Made by a program: the position numbers and the translations under genes
Shown here: positions 1,055 through 49,605 of the stretch, one piece after another
Numbering within the stretch: position 1 is the stretch's first letter
Layout of the letters: every line of letters begins with the position of its first letter
Notes under the pieces: model-generated
What the model was told of the DNA's origin: nothing
The model's database searches: none
What the model saw: only the letters and a program-made list of their open reading frames with translations
NCBI RefSeq assembly: GCF_002381345.1
Contig: NZ_CP020663.1
Span: 248,001-312,000 of the forward strand
Length of the DNA stretch: 64,000 bases
Direction of reading: 5' to 3'
Source of the DNA: Candidatus Enterovibrio altilux
GTDB lineage: Bacteria > Pseudomonadota > Gammaproteobacteria > Enterobacterales > Vibrionaceae

Positions 1055-1164
1055 GGGAAGGGATTCGGAGGGATATTATGCGCGATTATAACCAAATTAA
1101 TTGAGCTTTGCTCAACTCTACATAAGACATAATCCGATTTTTTAGCTAATAAAAATAACAATAG

Positions 1165-1361
1165 TTCGGGTTAAAAACTACTAAAAAGGACGCTGAACCT
1201 AAGGGATTACAATGCTCAGATTAAAAAATTTATAGCATGCTACAAGCGTTAAATTAGCTAACAGGGCTAAGTATACTTAAAACGAAAACGATTGTTTAAT
1301 CATTAATTATGTTGAAACATGCCATCTGAACTCAAATTAAGAAACAAAGCCAACCAAATAT
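1165..1361 (+). mobile_element. IS5-family (IS903 group) right-end fragment
   Basis: This is the last ~200 nt of the window's dominant IS. It carries the transposase C-terminal coding remnant and then the right terminus ending GAAACAAAGCC. The 5' part of the element is absent. Confidence 0.7.
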
Positions 1362-1531
1362 TGTATATTTAACACATTGAGACAGTGAATCTAATCCTTT
1401 GTACTCCCTTAGGGAGGTTCAATTAAAAAACAACCAAATCCTAAAAATTAGCAGGAATATATAATAAAATGCCCGACACACTCCTTGCATACAAAGCTAG
1501 AGAATTAAAATTTCTTGATTTTTGAATTTGA

Positions 1532-1608
1532 TGGCACGCCCTACAGGATTCGAACCTGTGACCTACGACTTAGAAGATCGTTGCTCTATCCATCTGAGCT
1601 AAGAGCGC
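1532..1608 (-). tRNA. tRNA-Arg(TCT)
   Basis: Reverse complement folds as a 77-nt cloverleaf: acceptor GCGCTCT pairs with AGGGCGT (G-T at the first pair), D arm AGCTCAGATGGATAGAGC, anticodon loop CTTCTAA giving anticodon TCT, T arm ACAGG-TTCGAAT-CCTGT, discriminator G and encoded CCA. It reads AGA codons, which should be frequent in an AT-rich genome. All stems are intact, so it looks functional although its upstream neighbour (rlmL) is dead. Confidence 0.95.
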
Positions 1609-1861
1609 ATTTAGTTCAAGTTTAATACAGATATAATACTAAATTATAAAGTGAGAAGATGCCACGTCAATGATTTTTATTGACCTCCCCAATTAAAGGG
1701 GGTAATAAACATTCGCATATTCAATAATCCGTCGGCTATTATTCATATTTCAACAACTAAGAATCTTTAACTAATAAGGACTTTAGTTCCCTAATTTAGG
1801 AAGTAAAGCTTTTCCCGTCTTACGCAGATAATGCGCATATATTGGTGTTGTATGTCGGCTA

Positions 1862-2098
1862 TCACTTGCAAAGATCATGTATGCGATTGATTAAACCGAG
1901 TGTAGTATACTGCTTTTCTTTTGAATAATTATCACAGTGGCCACCGTTAACTTTCAGAGGAAAATATAAACTATAATGAAGTTTATATAATTTATCGTAA
2001 TATTTTGTTTCAAATTCCGCTTTACAGAGTAGTTCTTCACCTGATTTAATCCAAGTGTGAATCATTTCAGTGTAATGAAAATTATGAAGCAAAGACAA
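1862..2098 (-). CDS. Small unidentified ORF, 78 aa
   Basis: An open frame of 78 codons runs antisense to the sstT leader and ends [14 protein letters not shown]. The composition (aromatic, mixed charge) looks more protein-like than the surrounding noise, and it could be the surviving tail of a conserved gene. I do not recognise the family, see no signal peptide or known motif, and its ATG overlaps the first codons of sstT by about 15 nt. It may be chance. No good ribosome-binding site was seen. Confidence 0.2.
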
Positions 2099-3322
2099 TT
2101 TACTTTAGCACGTGTGACGAATACCAGTCTAGTAGCACAAATACTGGTCAGTATTGGAGCTGGTATTGTTCTAGCTAGTTTTTTTCCTGACAGCGCAAAA
2201 GCCATAGGCTTTCTTGGTGATTTATTCATTAACGCATTAAAAGCAGTCGCACCAATTTTAGTTTTCGTATTGGTCGCAGCATCAATCGCTAACCAAAAAA
2301 AAGGTCAACATACCCATCTTCGGCCTGTTATCACTCTTTACTTTATTGGCACATTTGCAGCAGCGCTCACTGCTGTACTCATGAGCTTTTTGTTCCCGAC
2401 AGAATTAACGCTAATAACGTCAAAAATAATCAATTCCCCACCCGAAGGGATTGTACAAGTTATTTCAATTCTGCTTCTTAATGTAGTTGATAACCCAATC
2501 AACGCATTAATAACGGGTAACTTCATCGGAATTCTGGCTTGGGCCGTGGGTTTGGGTATTGCTCTCCACCATGCATCAGATACAACAAAAACAGTGTTTG
2601 GTGACATCGCAGAAAGTGTCTCATTTATCGTTTGTTTTATTATTAAATTGGCACCTATTGGTATTATTGGTCTAGTTGCTGACACTTTCGCTGACATTGG
2701 ATTTGATGCCCTAGTTGGCTATGCTCACTTACTGGTTGTACTTTTGGGTAGCATGATGCTCATTGCTTTGGTGGTGAACCCACTGATTGTTTACTTAAAA
2801 ACGCATACCAACCCTTACCCACTGGTATTTCAATGCATACGAGAGAGCGGCGTAACCGCATTTTTTACGCGCAGTTCAGCGGCTAATATTCCTGTTAACA
2901 TGCAGCTTTGTAACAAACTAAAACTAGATAAAAACACGTATTTAATATCAATTCCGTTAGGTGCAACCATTAATATGGAAGGTGCTGCAATTACCATTAC
3001 GGTGCTAACACTGGCAGCCGTACACACACTGGGCATTCAAATAGACCTTGCAACTGCTATTCTTTTAAGTATTATTGCTGCAGTATCTGCATGTGGTGTA
3101 TCTGGTATTGCTGGTGGTTCTCTCCTATTGATCCCGCTTTCCTGTAAACTGTTTGGTATTCCAAATGATATTACAATGCAGGTTGTTGCTGTTGGTTTCA
3201 TCATTAGTGTAATTCAAGATTCTGCAGAGACTGCATTGAACAGTTCTACTGATGTGCTTTTTACCGCTGCTGCATGCCGCGCAAAGGAAGCAAAAGCTTT
3301 GCAAACATCTGAGGTGAAATAA
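2084..3322 (+). CDS. sstT: Na+/serine-threonine symporter SstT
   Basis: About 412 residues, the normal length for SstT, a DAACS-family (SLC1-like) inner-membrane carrier that imports serine and threonine with Na+. Visible family signatures include the TM2 segment ending [20 protein letters not shown], the serine-rich re-entrant loop [13 protein letters not shown], the transport core [16 protein letters not shown], and the C-terminal [16 protein letters not shown]. Three in-frame ATGs exist (2057, 2075, 2084). I chose 2084 because the product then starts [11 protein letters not shown], matching relatives; none has a strong Shine-Dalgarno. It is a single gene between a tRNA and an IS relic. In a decaying genome its full length suggests amino-acid import from the host is selected, which is inference. 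Confidence 0.95.
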
Positions 3323-3333
3323 ATTTTATGTTC

Positions 3334-4459
3334 GAGCTTTATTGTCTCATTCGAATTCAAGTAATAAGTTTCAACATGATTAACTATTCGACGATTGCTT
3401 TCGTTTCTAGCATACCTATAGCTCGGTCAGCTTATTTAATGTTTTTATCATGACATAAGTTTTGATTTTATTTCCTAAATCAGAGAACTCAGTGTTCAAT
3501 GTACGCTCTAAATAGCTAGCTAAAAGCAGTATTATCAAGTTTTAATCAATCGTGGTCACTAAGATTTTGAATTGATGAAAAAGCTATTTCACTATGAAAT
3601 CAAACTAAGCAGAATAATCATGAAAGACCTAGTTTCTTTAGCGATCTAGCCACTACGACAACCCTCATAGTTACATGCGTATTTTCAATATCATTGAAAG
3701 ATCTGCAAGGATTCATTAATTCTGTTTTTTAGCTTACTCAACTACCATTGTCATGTCCTCACTATTCACGCATTAGTAAACGAACCAAAACGGTTAATGT
3801 CACGTTCAAAACAAAAAATATAGGGATCATCCAGCACTTAACTATTGATTCTACCGAATTCAAAATCTATGGTGAAAGCGAATGAAAAGCACAAAAGATA
3901 GTCGTGGTGAAAAACAGCAAATCTAGCGCAAGTTACATTTAGTGGTAAATATAGATACGCATGAAATCATTGCTGCTAAGTTAAGTGCATTAAATGTGGC
4001 TGGCGGTGAAGTGCTATCTAGCTTACTCAAACAGGCCTGCTAAAAAATCAATGAAACATCAGCCGATGGTGCTTACGACACCAAACAATATTACGAACCC
4101 ATTCGCATTAAACGAACGGTTCCACTCATCCCACTAAAAAAAGGAGCCACTATTTGAAAATGCGACCATCCGCGCAATTTAATAGTCAGTTACCAGAAGT
4201 TATACGGTTCCAATCAACATTAGAAAATAAAATATGCTTACCATAAACATTCTCTATCAGAGACAACAATGTTTTGAATTAAACAACTCCTCGGTGAAAC
4301 GTTTAACTTAAGAGATCACAATGCTCAGATTAGTGAAACTTATGCCATGATAAAGCGTTAAATAAGCTGACAAGGTTAGGTATGTCTAAAATAAACATAA
4401 TTATTTAATCGTTAGTCATTTTGGAATTTGCTATCTGACTCCAATTAGAAAGTAAAGTT
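3334..4459 (+). mobile_element. IS5-family copy with inverted right-end segment at its 5' side, decayed
   Basis: From 3334 to about 3462 the sequence is the inverted right end of the element. From about 3463 a left end (GATTTTATTTCC) starts a plus-oriented body whose broken frames still show DSTEFKIYGE and the DTKQYYEPIRIKR-type region. It ends near 4459. Transposase frames carry many stops. Here the inverted piece is shorter than in the recurrent chimera described under 8301-9531. Confidence 0.8.
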
Positions 4460-26745: not shown

Positions 26746-27210
26746 CTACACCTTCACATTTATTGAGTATAATAAACTATTCAAATCTTTTTTAAGTGCA
26801 TTTACTTTTTTATTGGCATTCTGAGCTCGGTTCGCTTCACTAAGTAAATACTCAATCGTATCGGATAAGGTAGCATCCAGATCTTGTGCTTTCATTGAAA
26901 GTTTTTCCCATACACAAAAATTTAAATCAATTGACTTCTTACGCGTGTATTCCTGCTCAGCATTGAAATAACGTTTACGCTTGGCACGAATAGCCTGCTT
27001 AAGCTTATTATCAAGATCAAGAGACATATGCTCTCTAATCCACTCAATGATTTTCGCAGGTTCATTCTCTAGCGATAATAAACCATTAATTGCAATTTGT
27101 GCCTCACAAATGTCAATATATCGTGTAACATTTCTACCTTCTTTGTATTTTTTAACGACATAGTCCCACTTCCAACGAGCTTCTACATTTTTAAATTGTT
27201 GATATTTCAT
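26746..27210 (-). CDS. matP: Macrodomain Ter protein MatP
   Basis: 154 residues matching MatP end to end: MKYQQFKNVEARWKWDYVVK, RYIDICEAQIAINGLLSLEN, the basic DNA-contact segment AIRAKRKRYFNAEQEYTRKK, the ribbon-helix-helix SIDLNFCVWEKLS, and a C-terminal coiled coil from about residue 120. MatP binds matS (GTGACRNYGTCAC) and organises the replication-terminus macrodomain. It is divergent from lonH, as in E. coli, and a perfect matS lies 550 bp away in lonH. Its intactness suggests Ter organisation is retained in this shrinking genome. Confidence 0.96.
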   Translation of the reverse strand: MKYQQFKNVEARWKWDYVVKKYKEGRNVTRYIDICEAQIAINGLLSLENEPAKIIEWIREHMSLDLDNKLKQAIRAKRKRYFNAEQEYTRKKSIDLNFCVWEKLSMKAQDLDATLSDTIEYLLSEANRAQNANKKVNALKKDLNSLLYSINVKV

Positions 27211-27450: not shown

Positions 27451-29166
27451 ATGCAAGAATTAACCTGGCAGTCCGTTATTCCTCGATTTTCAAATGTTGA
27501 GCAACAAATTAACAACTACGCAGCTTTAGTCTCAATGCCACCTTGTGCATTACAGCCTAGACTGAAAAATAGTATTCAGCGACTCATGAATAATTCTAGC
27601 TCTTCTCGCCTACTGTTGGTCACAGCACCAGACATTCATGATTATTACTCACTTATTAAAAATATCGTCGCAAACTTTTTACCGCACAAAAACATTCCTG
27701 TTCTATTGTGTGAAAATTTTGATGAAACTACACTGTTTGGAGGGGTGTATTCCAACCCAGCCGATGTGACAACGTCACGCATAGTGGAAGGATTAGTGCA
27801 TCAAGCTAATGGTGGCGTGCTTCTTATCTCTCTTACTGTCATGATTAGCCAGCCTAATTTATGGATCCGCTTAAAGCACGTTTTGGCTACCCACTCCCTC
27901 GCATGGAAAAGAATGAAACAAGAGTTTTATTGTGAACTTCCAAAGCCTAATGAAATATCGCTGCGTATTATTGTCATCGGTGATCGTTCGCTGATGTCTG
28001 ATTTCGAAACAGAAGAACCTGAACTGCACCGAATCAGTATCTATACAGAATACGAACAAGACGTGTTTTTAACAATAGAAAATGTCGACACTTACTTGTC
28101 TATCCTTAAAGGCTTCCAAACGTATTACGGCGTGAAACCATTAACAGCAAATGCCGTAAAACGCATCATGCAAGAAGGTGTGAGATTTACCGAAGATCAA
28201 GACCGTATGCCACTTTGCCCACTTTGGATTAAATCACTTATGCAAGAAGCTAATTATCAATCTCAACACGATGAGATTTCTGCTTATGACGTTGAAATGG
28301 CTATTAGCCAAAAATACTTCCGAGAATCTTACCTTCCATTGCGAGCGGTTGATTATATCCATAAAGGACAAGTTTTTATAGATACTAAAGGAGAACATAT
28401 TGGGCAGGTAAATGGCCTTACTGTTGTTGAAAGGTTAGGACATCCTATTGCTTACGGTGAACCAACACGAATTTCATGTGTTGTTCATTTTGGCGATGGC
28501 GATATTTCAGATGTAGAACGTAAAGTTGATTTAGCGGGTAACATTCACGCTAAAGGCATGATGATCATGCAAGCCTTCGTAAATGCCGCGCTAAATCTAT
28601 TTGAACCTCTTCCCTATTCTGCCTCTATCGTGTTCGAGCAATCCTACTGTGAAGTCGACGGTGACAGTGCCTCTCTTGCCGAACTTTGTGCTTTTGTGAG
28701 CGCATTGGCACAACAGCCAATCAATCAGAGTATTGCTATCACAGGTGCGGTCGACCAATTTGGTCGCGTACAAGCAGTAGGCGGTATTAATGAAAAAATT
28801 GAAGGTTTTTATTACATCTGTGAAAACAGAGGATTATCTGGCGACCAAGGCATAATTTTACCTAAAACAAACTTGAACGCACTATGTTTAAATCATAATG
28901 TTGCTAATGCTATTAAAGAAAAAAATTTTTATCTTTGGGCAATAGAGCATGTTGAAGAAGCTTTCCCACTAATCACTGGTCTTCGATTCAGTGATACAAA
29001 AGAAACGAAACAACGACAAGCAAACGTAAATAAACTGGCTAACAAGAAACAAAAAGAGCAAGAAACCATTTTAGGCAAAATTGCCGACCGTATTGATGCT
29101 TTTCATCATGGTGAACAGCGTCATACATCCTTAATGTATAAACTTAGAAATTGGCTCGCACACTGA
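27451..29166 (+). CDS. lonH: Lon-like protease LonH (YcbZ)
   Basis: 571 residues, close to E. coli YcbZ (586), in the conserved matP-ycbZ-fabA order. The N-terminal AAA-like part lacks a classic P-loop but keeps VLLCENFDETTLFGGVYSNP-type sequence. The C-terminal Lon protease domain (about 340-530) has the Ser-Lys dyad: Ser406 in EVDGDSAS and Lys449 in GGINEKIEG, with the same 43-residue spacing as Lon S679/K722. It probably acts as a membrane- or ribosome-associated protease; its physiological substrate is not established. Its stop overlaps the FadR-type operator of fabA. Confidence 0.92.
   Translation: MQELTWQSVIPRFSNVEQQINNYAALVSMPPCALQPRLKNSIQRLMNNSSSSRLLLVTAPDIHDYYSLIKNIVANFLPHKNIPVLLCENFDETTLFGGVYSNPADVTTSRIVEGLVHQANGGVLLISLTVMISQPNLWIRLKHVLATHSLAWKRMKQEFYCELPKPNEISLRIIVIGDRSLMSDFETEEPELHRISIYTEYEQDVFLTIENVDTYLSILKGFQTYYGVKPLTANAVKRIMQEGVRFTEDQDRMPLCPLWIKSLMQEANYQSQHDEISAYDVEMAISQKYFRESYLPLRAVDYIHKGQVFIDTKGEHIGQVNGLTVVERLGHPIAYGEPTRISCVVHFGDGDISDVERKVDLAGNIHAKGMMIMQAFVNAALNLFEPLPYSASIVFEQSYCEVDGDSASLAELCAFVSALAQQPINQSIAITGAVDQFGRVQAVGGINEKIEGFYYICENRGLSGDQGIILPKTNLNALCLNHNVANAIKEKNFYLWAIEHVEEAFPLITGLRFSDTKETKQRQANVNKLANKKQKEQETILGKIADRIDAFHHGEQRHTSLMYKLRNWLAH
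27766..27778. promoter_or_regulatory. matS site (MatP-binding)
   Basis: GTGACAACGTCAC fits the consensus GTGACRNYGTCAC at every position. It lies inside lonH, near its own binding protein's gene. It is the only perfect site I found by eye in the window. Confidence 0.85.
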
Positions 29167-29229: not shown

Positions 29230-29748
29230 ATGCTAATGAAACGTCACTCTTACACTAGGGAAGACTTACTCGCATCAAGTCAAGGAGAATTATTTGGGCC
29301 AGGTCGTCCACAGCTCCCAGCGCCTAATATGCTAATGATGGACCGTATTGCTAAGATTACCGATAAAGGTGGCAATTTCGATAGAGGTGTAATTATTGCT
29401 GAATTAGATATAAGCCCCGATTTGTGGTTCTTCAATTGTCACTTTCCAGGTGACCCTGTCATGCCTGGTTGTTTAGGCCTAGATGCTATGTGGCAACTTC
29501 TTGGCTTTTTTTTAGGCTGGATGGGAGGCAAAGGAAAAGGCCGAGCACTAGGTGTTGGTGAAGTAAAGTTCACTGGACAAGTGCTAGCAACAGCGAAGAA
29601 AGTAACGTATGAAATTCATATGCGGCGTGTGATTAATCGTAAACTCGTTATGGGTGTTGCGGACGGTCATATGTTAGTTGATGGTAAAGAGATTTACGTA
29701 GCAAAAGATTTAAAAGTTGGTCTTTTTATTAATATTTCTACATTCTAA
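29230..29748 (+). CDS. fabA: 3-hydroxydecanoyl-ACP dehydratase/isomerase FabA
   Basis: 172 residues. The hot-dog-fold active site is intact: His71 in [13 protein letters not shown] and Asp85 in [10 protein letters not shown]. It dehydrates 3-hydroxydecanoyl-ACP and isomerises trans-2 to cis-3-decenoyl-ACP, the branch point to unsaturated fatty acids; the next step needs FabB. Start at 29230 is supported by AAAGGA eight bases upstream (29236 is an alternative). Operators for FadR and FabR precede it. With fabF destroyed at 43.7-45.4 kb, FabA plus FabB would carry the whole unsaturated pathway. Confidence 0.97.
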
Positions 29749-41741: not shown

Positions 41742-42759
41742 GGGCTTCTTGATTTTTTTAAATATTGTCGAACTGCATAATTATGTTCAGCGAGTGTTTT
41801 TGAAAACTGATGTCCACCATAACCGCTCGCAACAAAATAAAAATACGTTGTTTGGTCAGGGTTCGCTGCTGCAAAAATGGAAGCACTCCCCGGCATAGCA
41901 ATCGGCGTTGGCGGCAATCCCGAAATCACATACGTATTGTACGGTGTTGGCGTACGTAAATCTTCCTCCCTAATATTACCTTTGTATTTATCACCCATCC
42001 CATAAATAACAGTTGGGTCTGTTTGCAAACGCATACGCTTTTTTAAGCGGTTTACAAAAACAGACGCCACTTTTCCGCGTTCAATATCAACTGCTGTTTC
42101 TTTTTCGATGATGGATGCGAGCGTTAACAAATCATAAGGCGACTTTATAGGAAGGTTAGCTTCGCGAGCTTTCCACGCGGAATCTAGCACCACTTGCAGC
42201 TGATTGGATGCGCGCCGAAAAATCGACATATCACTTTCACCCGCCACAAAATAATACGTTTCAGGTAGTAACATTCCTTCTACTTTATTTGAAGACAAAT
42301 CCAGTTTTGTTGCGATTTCCTTTTCACTAAGTAAACTCGAATCATGTTTTAAAAATTGAAATTGGTTTATAATTGCTCGCCACTCTTTAAAGGTACTTCC
42401 TTCAACAAAAGTAATAGCGAATTGATGCTCTTTACCCACGCTGAAAATGTTAAAAGCATCAGCCAGTGATATATGAGGGGTTAACTGATAAGTGCCTGCT
42501 TTTATTTGAGTCAATTCAGGGTGTGTTTTTGCAGCCCAACGCACCCACCGAGACGGATTTATAATATTTTGTTCAACGAGATCCTGAGTTAAAGAATGGT
42601 AGTTTGCGCCATAAGGGACTGTAAAAAAAATTTTTTTTTAATCTTTATTGGTGCGTAGACATAGCGTTCAATTTCCAAATATGCACTACCTAAAGCAGCT
42701 AATGCAGCTAATGCAGTTAATGCAAGACTAATAACTAAAAAGTTATTTTTTTTAATCAC
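41738..42759 (-). pseudogene. mltG: Endolytic murein transglycosylase MltG, frameshifted at an A9T8 tract
   Basis: It starts at GTG 42759 (sharing a base with the pabC stop, TAAGG upstream): VIKKNNFLVISLALTALAAL is the membrane anchor, then IERYVYAPIKIKK. At 42623-42639 the coding strand has nine A then eight T, after which this frame dies. The -1 frame continues FFTVPYGANYHSLTQDLVEQ and runs through the YceG domain to the stop at 41738, including GMLLPETYYF, the catalytic Glu in ASIIEKETA, and RLQTDPTVIYG. One extra base, or a -1 slip at T-TTT-TTA, restores a ~340-aa protein. All motifs are intact otherwise, so it may still be expressed. MltG cleaves nascent glycan strands and sets their length. 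Confidence 0.85.
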
Positions 42760-43565
42760 TAATTTAACCTTAATGCTATTGCTGTACATGCATCAAAAGC
42801 GCTGTATGGTGTGTTCTCAATCCTATTAACGGGTATAAGACCCATTATTGCATTTGTTATAAATATTTCATCGGCATCCCAAAGCACATCAGAGGCAGAC
42901 GTTATTTCTACTACGCTATACCCAAAATCATGGGCGATTTCCATTACTTGAGCACGCATCGTGCCTTTCACGCCAGCATACTGCAAATTTGGTGTATACA
43001 ATGTATTTTGCTTTCGCCAAAATAAATTAGAGGCTGAAGTCTCTATCATGTATCCATTCATATCGCAGGCAATGCCATCTTCTGCGTTAGATGCATCTAC
43101 TTCATGCTTCAGCATCACTTGTTCCAAACGGTTTAGGTGCTTTAGTCCCGCAAAAGGGGATATTCCCATTTTTTGAGTTAACAGTATAAGTGCAATACCT
43201 TCATCACGCCAAACATCATACTGAACTGGATAGTCATGCGTGAATACCACTACATTAGGCGAATGGCAGCCTGCTGGGCTATAGCTTCGATCACCTGTCC
43301 CACGGGTAATAATAACTTTTAAAATTGTTTTTTCTTTATTTTTTACCGTATCCGCCATTTGTTGAACCCAACGTTTCAACTGCTTCCAATCAATCAAAAC
43401 TATAAACAACTGAGCAGTATTATCACGTAAACGAGCCTCATGACGATCCCACGCAGATACTATACCATGCTGTACCAAAACGGTGGTAAAACATCCGTCA
43501 CCATACTGCAGACCACGATCTGAAATCGCAATAGCTGTAGTCTCTTGCCCGTTTAGCAAAATCAT
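42759..43565 (-). CDS. pabC: Aminodeoxychorismate lyase
   Basis: 268 residues from MILLNGQETTAIAISDRGLQ at 43565 (preceding codons to 43586 are not family-like). Fold-IV PLP enzyme: YGDGCFTT, catalytic Lys in GLKHLNRLEQV, ETSASNLFWRK. It makes p-aminobenzoate for folate. It sits in its normal place after fabF, although fabF is now destroyed. Confidence 0.93.
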   Translation of the reverse strand: MILLNGQETTAIAISDRGLQYGDGCFTTVLVQHGIVSAWDRHEARLRDNTAQLFIVLIDWKQLKRWVQQMADTVKNKEKTILKVIITRGTGDRSYSPAGCHSPNVVVFTHDYPVQYDVWRDEGIALILLTQKMGISPFAGLKHLNRLEQVMLKHEVDASNAEDGIACDMNGYMIETSASNLFWRKQNTLYTPNLQYAGVKGTMRAQVMEIAHDFGYSVVEITSASDVLWDADEIFITNAIMGLIPVNRIENTPYSAFDACTAIALRLN

Positions 43566-43669
43566 TACATATTCCTGATGGTACAAATAAAAAATGATCT
43601 CATACAGGGTATTCCACTACCTTAATCTAACAAAAACCCAAATTTTAAAAACTTAAAAGACTCTTTATT

Positions 43670-45387
43670 TCACCAATCAAAAAATTTATATAGTGCATAC
43701 TCCATATTCATTTGACACATATCATGAAGCACCCGATACCAATCACAACCATACTCAAAATTATTTAAATAAATGGTGATGCAACAGTCTCATCAACCAA
43801 TGGCATAATAATACATTCAGCAGAACCAACTGCACCTGAAAGATGTCCTATCATTGACTTGGTAGACGAAACCATCGTCTTATCAGCAGCAGCATCTATC
43901 ATCAAACAGATACTTTTCGTTTCCATAAGGTCACCACTAGTGTAAACATACCATGAGCATCAATATATTCGATTTATTCTAATATGATACCCGCATCGTG
44001 AATAGCAGCTTTCATTGCCCATGCACCACAAGTGCGTTGATGACAAAACCATCACAGGCTTTATCCCAAGGCTGAGAAGCTCTTTATGGACTGTCATTAC
44101 GCGTAGAGAGCGCTTTTACAGTAGTAAACCCCCCCAATACCAAGTTCAGTCAATGCTATTTTCAATGCTGCATTGTTTCCTAATTCAAGTGTCGAGAAAA
44201 AATATTAACATGATTCGCTATTAGACAATCGCTTTCGTATTAGGCATACCTAGTTTTATCCGCTTATTTTACGCTTTTATCATGGCGGCGGTTTCACTAA
44301 TATGAGTTGTATGATCCCTTAAAATCAATGTCCCTACCAGTCCTTGTTATTTCCTGAATAAGAGAACTAAATTTTCACTCAATACTCAAAATAATTAGGC
44401 TTACTTAAATATTCAGATCCATGAACAATCTTCGCTACAATTCAACTCACTAGAAGCAGTATAATCAAGCTTTAACTAATCGTTGCTAACTAATATTCTG
44501 GATTGATAAAGAACCTATTCAGCTATGGAATCAAACTAAGCCAGGTAATCATAGGAGACATCATTTATTTAACGACTGAGCCATTACGACAGCCCTCATG
44601 GTTAAATGCATATTTTCAATGCGCTTAAGAGGTCTGCAAAGATTCATCAATTCTATTTTCAAACTTGAACTTTATTTCCTAATTTGAAATCAAGTTAGCA
44701 AAATTTATGTCATGATCAAAGCGTTAAATAAACTAACTGGGCTAAGTATGCCTAAAATAAAAGCAATTGTTTAATGGTTAATGATGTGGAGATTTGCTAT
44801 CTGAACTCAAATTAGGGAACAAAGCCTTTTAATATCACCAGTAACCTGCATCTATGTCACCACATGCAATCATACGTATTGCATGGCCAATATTATGCAA
44901 GCCAATGATACACGCAGTTGAAATAGCAATATTTAGCACAAGAGGGCCGTAATAGATCGAAATATAACCGACGATCATGTTAACAATGATTGACGATACA
45001 ACAATGGACTGATTTTTATGGACTTTTTTAACATACGTACAGTGATTTATTTCAATCAAACCAAGACAACCGATGCTCGAATCAATAGCAATACCTATGC
45101 GCTCAGCATGTTCTTCTATGATTCCCAAACCAGAATTTTTCAATGCTTGCACACTTGCTGCGATCCCGTACTAAATAAAAAAAACCATTTTATGAGCGTC
45201 CTTTTTAAAAATTTAATCTTCACCGTTAAAATTATTTACTAAACCCACAATCCTTATCACGAATTCTGTAGTATCGCAATAATTAATAGTTTGAATACCT
45301 CTCTGGCCAGATAACAGCACTTTCCAAGAAAATACAACAGTCTGGTGATAACATCCACATGTCTGTAACAACACGACGTTTAGACAT
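43670..45387 (-). pseudogene. fabF: FabF (3-oxoacyl-ACP synthase II), destroyed, with IS5 insertion
   Basis: Start ATG 45387 after GGAG: SKRRVVVTDMWMLSPD (family VVVTGMGMLSPVGNT). Open piece 45152-44835 has EEHAERIGIAIDSSIGCLGL, TIVNMI-type sequence and NIAISTACIIGLHNIGHAIR (catalytic Cys in STAC). After the IS (44170-44826) the gene resumes: LRVMTVHKE/SQPWDKACDGFV, the active-site His region YIDAHG, VSSTKSMIGHLSGAVGSAEC, and the end MEYALYKFFDW near 43670 (family MEYALCNSFGFGG). Numerous stops and shifts make rescue impossible. FabF elongates palmitoleate to cis-vaccenate. It lies between acpP and pabC as in Vibrio. Confidence 0.9.
44170..44826 (+). mobile_element. IS5-family chimeric remnant inside fabF
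   Basis: Inverted right end from 44170 (GCATTGTTTCCTAATTC) to about 44345, a left-end stretch to ~44670, then a right end to AAAGCC at 44826; the middle of the transposase is deleted. No flanking direct repeat is obvious. Confidence 0.8.
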
Positions 45388-45483: not shown

Positions 45484-45720
45484 TTACTCAGACGCACCAA
45501 CAACATAGTCAATAGCGGCTTGAACGGTAGTAATCTTCTCTGCTTCTTCGTCTGGAATCTCGGTGTCGAACTCTTCTTCCAAAGCCATGACTAACTCAAC
45601 TGTGTCTAGTGAGTCAGCGCCAAGGTCATCAACAAAAGATGCTTCATTCTTAACTTCAGCTTCGTTTACACCTAGTTGCTCGATGATTATTTTTTTTACT
45701 CGTTTTTCAATGTTGCTCAT
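45484..45720 (-). CDS. acpP: Acyl carrier protein
   Basis: 78 residues ([17 protein letters not shown]); the phosphopantetheine site is Ser37 in [14 protein letters not shown]. Nearly identical to other Vibrio ACPs. It carries acyl intermediates for all Fab enzymes here. An upstream in-frame start at 45747 would add nine residues foreign to the family. Confidence 0.98.
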
Positions 45721-45878: not shown

Positions 45879-46616
45879 TCAAATCATATACATGCCGCCA
45901 TTGACATGCAGTGTTTCACCTGTAATATACGCTGCATCATCAGAGGCTAAAAAAGCTACAGTTGCTGCAATTTCACGCGGATAGCCTAAACGTCCAGTAG
46001 GTACTTGAGCCAAAATTACCGAGTACTGATCATCATCCAACGCTCTTGTCATATCAGTTTCGATGAAACCGGGAGCAACAGTATTTACGGTAATGCCGCG
46101 CGATGCGACTTCACGTGCCAGAGATTTAGTAAAGCCTACAATTCCAGCTTTAGCCGCTGAATAATTTGCTTGCCCTGGGTTACCCATTGTACCCACAACA
46201 GAACCAACATTAATAATACGTCCATTGCGTTTTTTCATCATTGTACTCAGCACGACTTTAGACATACGGAAGATAGATGTTAAATTAGTATCTATGATGT
46301 ATTGCCAGTCATCCTCTTTCATACGTATCAACAAGTTATCACGCGTAGTACCTGCATTGTTTACTAAAATATCGATATCACCAAATTCTTCTTTAATAGA
46401 TTTTAGTACTGTGTCAATGAACTCAGCAGAAGTAACATTTAGCACGTATCCTTTACCGTTTTCACCCAATAAATAGTCACTGATTACTGCTGCTCCGCTT
46501 TCCGCTGTTGCTGTACCAACAACCGTCGCCCCACGCTCAGCCAAAAGTTCAGCAATTGCACGTCCTATACCGCGACTTGCACCCGTGATAAGAGCAATTT
46601 TACCGTTCAGGTCCAT
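45879..46616 (-). CDS. fabG: 3-oxoacyl-ACP reductase FabG
   Basis: 245 residues from MDLNGKIALITGASRGIGRA (start 46616; an earlier start at 46646 adds non-family sequence). SDR motifs: TGASRGIG (11-18), NNAG, Ser139, Tyr152 and Lys156 in YSAAKAG. NADPH-dependent second step of each elongation cycle. In the fab operon between fabD and acpP. Confidence 0.97.
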   Translation of the reverse strand: MDLNGKIALITGASRGIGRAIAELLAERGATVVGTATAESGAAVISDYLLGENGKGYVLNVTSAEFIDTVLKSIKEEFGDIDILVNNAGTTRDNLLIRMKEDDWQYIIDTNLTSIFRMSKVVLSTMMKKRNGRIINVGSVVGTMGNPGQANYSAAKAGIVGFTKSLAREVASRGITVNTVAPGFIETDMTRALDDDQYSVILAQVPTGRLGYPREIAATVAFLASDDAAYITGETLHVNGGMYMI

Positions 46617-46672
46617 TTTAGTTCGTTCCTTAATGATCACAGACATAAAAATTTAACCGCTGCTTCCAAAAA

Positions 46673-47596
46673 TTATTTTGCGGCTTCCAAAGAAGCTGGA
46701 TCGTTTACTACAACCGCGTTAAGTTTACGATCAATGCGCTTTGTTAGACCAGTCAACACTTTACTTGGACCCATTTCTAATAATAATTTAACACCCTTGC
46801 TTGCAATTTTTTCAATGCTTTCAGCCCAGCGTACTGGACCAAACAATTGACGTACTAATGCTGACTTAATTGCATCAGAAGATGTTTCGACTGCAATATC
46901 CGCATTATTAATGACAGGAATAGACGGCAAAGAAAATTCGATAGAGTCTAATGCCACAGCAAGCTTATCAGCTGCTGGTTTCATTAACGCGCAATGAGAC
47001 GGCACAGAAACAGGCAATAGTAATGCACGCTTAGCACCTGCGTCCTTACAAAGTTCGTTTGCACGCACTACCGCTTCTTTATTACCTGCAATAACAACTT
47101 GGCCCGGCGAATTAAAGTTTACAGGGGAAACAACTTGCCCCTGTGCTGCATATTCGCACATTTTAGAAATAAACTCGTTATCCAAGCCAATGATCGCAGA
47201 CATTGCACCAATACCAGCAGGAACAGCTTTTTGCATTAATTTGCCACGTAACTCAACAAGCTTAATGGCCTCTTTGAAATCAATCACACCTGCACACACA
47301 AGCGCAGAATATTCACCCAAACTGTGACCAGCCATTACTGAAGGTTGTGCACCACTTTCTTGTAACCATACACGCCAAATTGCTACTGATGCTGCCAGCA
47401 AAGCAGGTTGTGTACGGTGCGTTTGGTTTAAATCAGCGTCTGGGCCATTTTGAACCAGCGCCCAAAGATCATAACCCAGTACGTCAGATGCTTCAGCAAA
47501 TGTCCGTTGTACAACCTTAAATTTTTTTGCAAGTTCTGCCAACATACCTACTGTTTGTGAACCTTGTCCTGGAAAGATCACAGCAAAAATTGACAT
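46673..47596 (-). CDS. fabD: Malonyl-CoA:ACP transacylase FabD
   Basis: 307 residues. FPGQGSQ, nucleophile Ser92 in AGHSLGEYSA, PVSVPSHCALM with the catalytic His. It transfers malonyl to AcpP. Twelve nucleotides after fabH. Confidence 0.97.
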   Translation of the reverse strand: MSIFAVIFPGQGSQTVGMLAELAKKFKVVQRTFAEASDVLGYDLWALVQNGPDADLNQTHRTQPALLAASVAIWRVWLQESGAQPSVMAGHSLGEYSALVCAGVIDFKEAIKLVELRGKLMQKAVPAGIGAMSAIIGLDNEFISKMCEYAAQGQVVSPVNFNSPGQVVIAGNKEAVVRANELCKDAGAKRALLLPVSVPSHCALMKPAADKLAVALDSIEFSLPSIPVINNADIAVETSSDAIKSALVRQLFGPVRWAESIEKIASKGVKLLLEMGPSKVLTGLTKRIDRKLNAVVVNDPASLEAAK

Positions 47597-47608: not shown

Positions 47609-48574
47609 TTAAAATTTAATTAAAGCAGAACCCCATGTGAAACCACCGCCAAAAGCTTCTAGTAATATCGTTTGGCCACGTTGAATACGTCCATCTCGAA
47701 CAGCTTCATCAAGCGCGATAGGAACAGAAGCTGCAGACGTATTACCGTGTTTATCCAAAGTGATTACCACATGACCCATAGATATAGACAGTTTTTTCGC
47801 AGTGGCTTTAATAATACGATAGTTTGCTTGATGCGGAACAAGCCAATCAATTTCAGACTTATCCATTTCATTAGCATCTAACGTTTCAGAGACAATATTT
47901 ACCAGTTGCGTCACAGCAACCTTAAAGACATCATTCCCCGCCATTTCCAGCCAAGAATCTTCTTTTACTTGCGAACGAGCATTATTACGTGCAGGATGCT
48001 TTAAATTCAGAAGTTCACCGAATTTTCCATCAGCACGCAAGTGGGTAGAAATCACTCCAGGCTCTTCGCTGGCACCCAAAACCACCGCACCAGCACCATC
48101 ACCAAATAAGATAATAGTTGAACGATCTTTAGGATCGCAAGTATGAGAAAGACGATCTGCGCCAATAACTAGCGCATTGCACGCCATTCCTGCTTTCACG
48201 TACTGATCTGCAATACTAAGTGCATAAACAAAACCAGAACATGCTGCTGCAATATCAAACGCAGGACAACCTGAAATACCAAGCATTGCTTGCACATCAC
48301 ATGCAGCTGCTGGAAATGCACTCTCACCACTAGTAGTAGCAATAATGATAAGGTCAATGTCTTGCTTATCAATTCCAGCTATTTCAATAGCCTGACAAGC
48401 AGCATAATAAGCCATAGTTGTTACTGATTCATTTTCAGCAGCAATACGACGCTCTTTAATACCAGTTCGAGCGATAATCCACTCATCACTGGTATCTACC
48501 ATTTTAGCGAGATCCGCATTACTGCGAATTTGGGCTGGCAAAAAGCTGCCTGTACCTAGAATCTTACTGAACAT
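47609..48574 (-). CDS. fabH: 3-oxoacyl-ACP synthase III FabH
   Basis: 321 residues. Catalytic Cys112 in [10 protein letters not shown], His in VPHQANYRI, Asn in [10 protein letters not shown]-terminal [18 protein letters not shown]. It starts fatty-acid synthesis by condensing acetyl-CoA with malonyl-ACP. Five nucleotides after plsX. Intact, unlike the elongating synthase FabF of the same operon. Confidence 0.97.
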
Positions 48575-48579
48575 GAAGA

Positions 48580-49605
48580 CTAATATTGCCTCTCGAGTAG
48601 TGCGGCTTCTAAACGATCACATATTTTTTTAGGGAGTTGCCGTTCAACTTCTTGTACCGCTTCCTCGATAGCATGTTGAAAAGCAGAAACATCAGCACGT
48701 CCGTGACTTTTTACTACAATACCATGCAATCCTAATAGACTTGCACCATTATGCTGATCAGGGTTTAAATGATTTAGCATATTAAATAAGTCCCCAAACA
48801 GACATTTAGCCGCTAGCTTTTTGAAAGGATTAGCTGCAATATGTACATTCATACTACCTAAAAGTAATTTTGCAACACCTTCACTAGTTTTAAGGCTCAC
48901 ATTACCCACAAATCCATCACAGACAATCACGTTGGCTTTCCCTGTATAAAGTTGATCCCCTTCTACATAGCCGATGTAATTGACTACAGAGCACTGTTGA
49001 AGCATTTCAGAACAACGCTTAACTAAATCATTACCTTTTATCGCTTCTTCACCAATATTCAATAATCCTACAGAAGGTTTATATCCAAGCTGCGCTTCTG
49101 CTAATACTGACCCCATAACCGCGAATTGAAACAAAGTATCCGCATTAACAGAAACATTTGCACCAAGATCCAACAACCAACTCTGATGACATCCCAATGT
49201 AGGGAGCGCAGAAACCAATGCTGGTCTATTGATTCCTGGTAAAAGTTTTAATAATGAACGAGAAAGTGCCATTAGTGCGCCAGTATTTCCAGCACTAATA
49301 CAAGCATCAACACTGCCATCAGCAACAAGTTCTAACGCAATACGCATTGATGTTCCTCTGCTCGAACGAAGTGCTTGAGAAGGACTGATGTCATTGCCAA
49401 TAGAAGATTCCGCATGTACTATTGATATACGGGAAGCATTATTATAATTTAATGACACAAGCTGATGAGTAATATCAGGTTTATTACCGACAAGTACAAC
49501 TTTTAGCGAAGGAAAATACGATAATGCCTGCACGGTAGCAGGCACTGTAACCTTAGGACCAAAATCCCCACCCATCGCATCAAGTGCAATGGTCAAACCT
49601 GTCAA
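48580..49605 (-). CDS. plsX: Phosphate acyltransferase PlsX
   Basis: 341 residues. [68 protein letters not shown]. It makes acyl-phosphate for phospholipid synthesis. The start is a TTG at 49605 with AAGG eight bases upstream; E. coli plsX also begins with TTG. Ten nucleotides after rpmF. Confidence 0.95.

Follow-up and report, generated by a model that had tools for sequence, protein, structure and literature searches.

A decayed fabF within the fatty acid operon of the anglerfish symbiont Candidatus Enterovibrio luxaltus, and the lack of a detectable FabA in its sister symbiont

Our analyses show that Candidatus Enterovibrio luxaltus CC26 carries a pseudogene of fabF (KAS II) on the minus strand at 43673-45387 of the 64,000-nucleotide stretch of its genome analyzed here (the window, to which positions refer unless another contig is named), identified by its place between acpP and pabC and by its FabF-like sequence. 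The initial annotation had raised a deep-sea animal as a conceivable host, and the available text of PMC6020299 indeed describes this organism as the light-organ symbiont of the deep-sea anglerfish Cryptopsaras couesii. Our preferred reading, to which we give a probability of roughly three in four, is that fabF is a true pseudogene left by IS-driven genome reduction, that elongation is carried by FabB and that FabA and FabB, perhaps together with a desaturase, provide 16:1, selection on fabF being relaxed and mainly the cis-vaccenate step and its control being lost.

Mapping of the remnant by tblastn, with the intact FabF of the sister symbiont Ca. E. escacola as query, resolved six pieces spread over three frames; the frame changes at each of the five junctions, and four in-frame stops are present. 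The 5' block (44850-45387, minus strand) lies in two frames, residues 1-16 (45387-45343) being in another frame than residues 19-184 (45344-44850), which hold two of the stops. The 3' block (43673-44146, minus strand) runs through several frames and holds the other two, one in residues 197-232 (44146-44039) and one in residues 281-313 (44024-43926), followed by residues 311-363 (43935-43783) and 366-400 (43777-43673). Codons ~185-196, ~233-279 (~47 codons) and all those past ~400 have no tblastn alignment in the remnant, and a decayed IS-like repeat copy of ~700 bp (44147-44849, minus strand) sits between residues 184 and 197. Piece by piece, the remnant is 45-64% identical to E. escacola FabF and occupies the same acpP-pabC interval as in that organism; a 104-aa open piece inside the 5' block scores 29 bits to PF00109, and no single open frame holds full synthase domains. 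The six pieces, four stops, missing parts and insert bear out the initial annotation, which had described fabF as destroyed and had placed it correctly.

Eight of the nine neighbors tested by tblastn are clean, each in one frame with zero stops. These include plsX (48580-49605), fabH (47609-48574), fabD (46673-47596), fabG (45879-46646), acpP (45484-45720) and pabC (42759-43586), all open on the minus strand and all already described as intact, as well as tmk and holB; pabC is open but diverged, with an aminotransferase class IV domain at 147.9 bits. The alignment of the ninth neighbor, mltG, starts only at residue 43: the frame shifts at an A/T run (42560-42640, minus strand), with residues 43-334 in one frame and the start in another, which may reflect either a genuine frameshift or an error in the homopolymer. 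It could be argued that the fabF lesions are likewise assembly or sequencing errors, or are confined to CC26, the one specimen from which they are known, given a coverage of 14x (PMC6020299, Table 2) and the nearby frame shift of mltG at a homopolymer run. We consider this very improbable, because a single gene combines an insertion, a ~47-codon deletion, four stops and five frame-change junctions amid neighbors that are clean but for mltG. Measured against Grimontia hollisae, pN is 0.18-0.27 for the remnant pieces versus 0.077 for the intact fabF of E. escacola, and within E. luxaltus it is 0.025 for acpP, 0.046 for fabB and 0.08-0.10 for fabG, fabA, plsX, fabH and fabD. On its own, pN proves little, because the open pabC (0.30) and the open desaturase gene discussed below (0.153, versus a pS of 0.80) also score high; the pseudogene case rests on the lesions. 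Since synonymous sites are near saturation, we give no age for the loss.

Across the E. luxaltus genome (2,143,356 bases in four contigs), PF00109 matches three places only: FabB, the fabF remnant and a third that, from its sequence, we take to be FadI. A second fabF was sought genome-wide and was not found among these matches, so the claim of loss stands. No intact KAS I/II-type ketosynthase was found other than FabB, on which the organism had been proposed to rely. A PfaA-type ketosynthase would also carry PF00109 and has no such match in the genome; a Pfa-type backup for fabF was rejected on this ground. The FabB (KAS I) assignment is supported by 713.8 bits to NF005935 (cut-off 630), and the protein is 89.8-92.0% identical to those of 14 congeners. 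A comparison with 18 other genomes, which leaves out G002 (where the stretch carried FabF instead) and G014, revealed 11 differences private to E. luxaltus, at positions that, E. escacola apart, are invariant in the 17 others; no obvious compensating change was seen in this comparison, and a compensating adaptation of FabB was set aside. The fabA gene is intact at 29230-29748 on the plus strand (304.1 bits to NF003509, cut-off 124), and a second PF07977 match, on C1, is FabZ-like. Adjoining fabA is a LonB-like protease gene, called lonH here (27451-29166, plus strand) and absent in E. escacola, flanked in turn by a gene that we presume to be a matP homolog (26746-27210, minus strand), which E. 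escacola keeps at its fabA site.

Under our preferred reading, IS-driven genome reduction would have led to the decay of fabF under relaxed selection, FabB would take over chain elongation past the FabH step, and FabA and FabB would still produce 16:1, to which the putative oxygen-dependent desaturase may contribute. Selection on fabF would have been relaxed because FabF is not needed for unsaturation itself. According to the available text of PMC8319022, the role of FabF is to extend 16:1 to cis-vaccenate, and a fabF1 deletion in Pseudomonas putida left cells viable with 18:1 down and 16:1 up. From the gene states, we infer that what E. luxaltus lost is mainly the step from 16:1 to 18:1 (cis-vaccenate) together with its temperature and pressure control, and that its membrane is likely rich in 16:1 and poor in vaccenate; the cause of the relaxed selection is put forward on the same footing.

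A gammaproteobacterium without FabF is already known. For example, Haemophilus influenzae Rd has FabB only and no fabF, and a title cited in the same source, of which part was available, describes H. influenzae as being without thermal control of its membrane lipids (PMC8319022). E. luxaltus resembles it in being a gammaproteobacterium with FabB and without fabF, but H. influenzae is no deep-sea symbiont, and E. luxaltus still has a recognizable fabF pseudogene in its operon. On the other hand, Photobacterium profundum is cited as needing FabF for pressure control and for piezophilic growth (PMC8174602, in the part available), and a fabF substitute unseen in our searches is possible for that reason. 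The pathway of P. profundum SS9 is likewise a Vibrionaceae pathway with FabA, FabB and FabF plus an oxygen-dependent desaturase, the desaturases being likened here by role and not by orthology. However, the EPA synthase of SS9 can compensate, whereas E. luxaltus has no match to a PfaA-type ketosynthase. E. luxaltus is a deep-sea symbiont living without a protein cited as needed for pressure control in a deep-sea vibrio, and with no sign of an EPA route.

Within the Vibrionaceae, a survey gave, on our count of its rows, a FabF match at E 1.2e-189 or better in 318 of 329 genomes. Among the 11 without, an operon with intact neighbors and no usable fabF occurs in two, E. luxaltus and Paraphotobacterium marinum NSCS20N07D (G018; chromosomes of 1,426,504 and 1,161,949 bp). 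Four others (G347, G029, G126 and G122) carry a near full-length fabF in two to three frames, which may be draft error or real decay, and in G108 the contig ends after fabD. For fabD, G181 has no match, G274 a partial one, G085 a distant FabD-like one only and G321 two pieces; G181, G274 and G085 are uninformative on fabF loss. P. marinum is, like E. luxaltus, a small-genome member of the Vibrionaceae whose fab operon lacks fabF between acpP and pabC, but its fabF is cleanly deleted, with acpP followed directly by pabC (C1:74000-86000), and its second chromosome encodes a different KAS II-like protein (L027:5481-6773) that reaches 428 bits against NF005589, whose cut-off is 387, but stays below the FabF equivalog cut-off. 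Unlike both anglerfish symbionts, P. marinum has no match to a PF00487 desaturase. Nor do two tiny genomes of the family (1.0 and 1.1 Mb, a size that we associate with flashlight-fish symbionts), both of which keep FabF and FabA. The loss of fabF had been called unexpected, but it has precedents in H. influenzae and the P. marinum operon. Within the genus, all 17 other genomes surveyed keep FabF (E 5.4e-229 or better).

Ca. E. escacola MJ02, from the anglerfish Melanocetus johnsonii (assembly N50 of 113,883 bases; PMC6020299, in the text available), likewise inhabits an anglerfish light organ and has a reduced genome rich in IS elements, the same desaturase and no FadL or FadD match. A check of related symbionts for the same lesion had been proposed, and here the two part ways: E. 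escacola has retained a 416-aa FabF, which scores 788.2 bits to NF006434, alongside a second KAS II-like protein (L025:6860-8158 on its contig C1; 586 bits to NF004970, cut-off 525), but has no detectable FabA, the reverse of E. luxaltus for FabF and FabA. This bears on the idea that losing FabF is an adaptation for light production, in which elongation is slowed and more C14 acyl-ACP is left for the luciferase aldehyde. The aldehyde substrate of luciferase is linked to C14 acyl chains, and this general link is what speaks for the idea; E. escacola, likewise luminous, keeps FabF, and FabB is able to elongate C14, which makes such an adaptation hardly credible. In the FabA survey, the best E. 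escacola match has an E value of 7.6e-5, and PF07977 matches one place only in its genome. At its fabA site, on contig C35, matP (619-1068) is followed by ~2.4 kb of transposase remnants (1069-3451) and then by rmf-side DNA that corresponds to the DNA starting ~250 bases past fabA in G. hollisae; the site has no FabA match and only chance-level matches to lonH, whereas E. luxaltus aligns with the equivalent stretch of G. hollisae for 2.4 kb. From these alignments, the lonH-fabA segment appears to have been replaced by decayed transposase debris, although a fabA copy in an assembly gap is conceivable because the genome is a draft (~40 contigs, 99% completeness). We also observed that matP is inverted in E. 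escacola relative to G. hollisae. Besides E. escacola, the survey of 329 Vibrionaceae gave a weak or no FabA match in G070, G112, G122, G133 and G209; G070 (E 1.7e-4) and G133 (E 6.5e-39) both have 100% completeness, and their weak matches may reflect additional losses of FabA, frameshifts or gaps.

An open PF00487 desaturase gene is present once in each anglerfish symbiont and also in the three free-living congeners searched. The protein scores 67.8 bits to PF00487 (cut-off 29.7), as a membrane fatty-acid desaturase of the stearoyl-CoA-desaturase-like kind, and its PDB relatives are the solved acyl-CoA desaturases 4ymk (E 1.8e-47) and 4zyo (E 2.1e-46). Membrane desaturases carry three histidine boxes, and all three are conserved in the alignment. 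Scores to the DesA-family model NF049918 (56.5 bits for E. luxaltus and 48.7 for E. escacola) are far below its cut-off of 400, and the substrate is therefore not assignable to the DesA type; in both symbionts, we regard the protein as a putative oxygen-dependent acyl desaturase. DesA is cited as bypassing FabA and FabB in P. aeruginosa, and the authors of the SS9 study made a strain fully reliant on external MUFA by deleting fabA together with desA (PMC8174602, in the part available). A DesA-like bypass of this kind would allow E. escacola to live without FabA.

An alternative view is that the host supplies unsaturated fatty acids, making the symbiont's own chain elongation dispensable, which would fit the proposed reliance of the symbiont on host-derived glucose and amino acids (PMC6020299, in the text available). 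The gene content argues against this: FadL-family proteins have no match in either symbiont versus four to six in the three free-living congeners, and the sole full AMP-binding protein of each symbiont is MenE-like and not FadD (495 bits in E. escacola, against a cut-off of 494, and 447, below the cut-off, in E. luxaltus), whereas a true FadD, scoring 1092 bits, is present in G. hollisae. The search for AMP-binding proteins detected no FadD in E. luxaltus or E. escacola; an AMP-binding fragment of 79 aa on E. escacola contig C31 contains a stop. Uptake of host lipid through FadL and FadD was rejected as the main explanation because neither family was detected, and since E. luxaltus also retains FabA and FabB, we consider host supply unlikely. 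The same absence counts against our preferred reading, in that the supply of acyl-CoA to an acyl-CoA desaturase is questionable without FadD.

Our literature search, with subscription papers and supplements outside it, found no prior report of fabF or fabA loss in anglerfish symbionts, and neither fabF nor fatty acid occurs in the available main text of the papers found that name E. escacola. The complementary losses of FabF and FabA are the new and more interesting part. We see about even odds that the two symbionts are separately dismantling the oxygen-independent route to unsaturated fat, the affected step being FabF in E. luxaltus and FabA in E. escacola, after both had shed FadL and FadD and while both keep the oxygen-dependent desaturase; the pattern consists of two lineages and is beyond statistical testing. 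From the pair of losses, the membrane chemistry of E. escacola is predicted to depend on oxygen; if this is true, the organism could unsaturate its membrane lipid only in the presence of oxygen, for example in a light organ oxygenated for luciferase. Together with free-living congeners that retain the complete pathway, the symbiont pair offers a natural comparison of unsaturation routes for cold, high-pressure life.

The repeat inserted in fabF is one of a large family with inverted ends, for which 145 matches were listed across the E. luxaltus genome, a number that counts the insert itself and partial pieces. The ends of the insert are inverted but imperfectly matched (115 bp at 71%), and it contains no open transposase. 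Plasmid matches to it, from a search covering at most 24% of the query, are annotated as IS5 family transposase, and a related copy (L209) carries an IS5-like transposase fragment at 53.6 bits versus a curated cut-off of 140. The copies inspected (L207-L210) hold decayed transposase pieces only.
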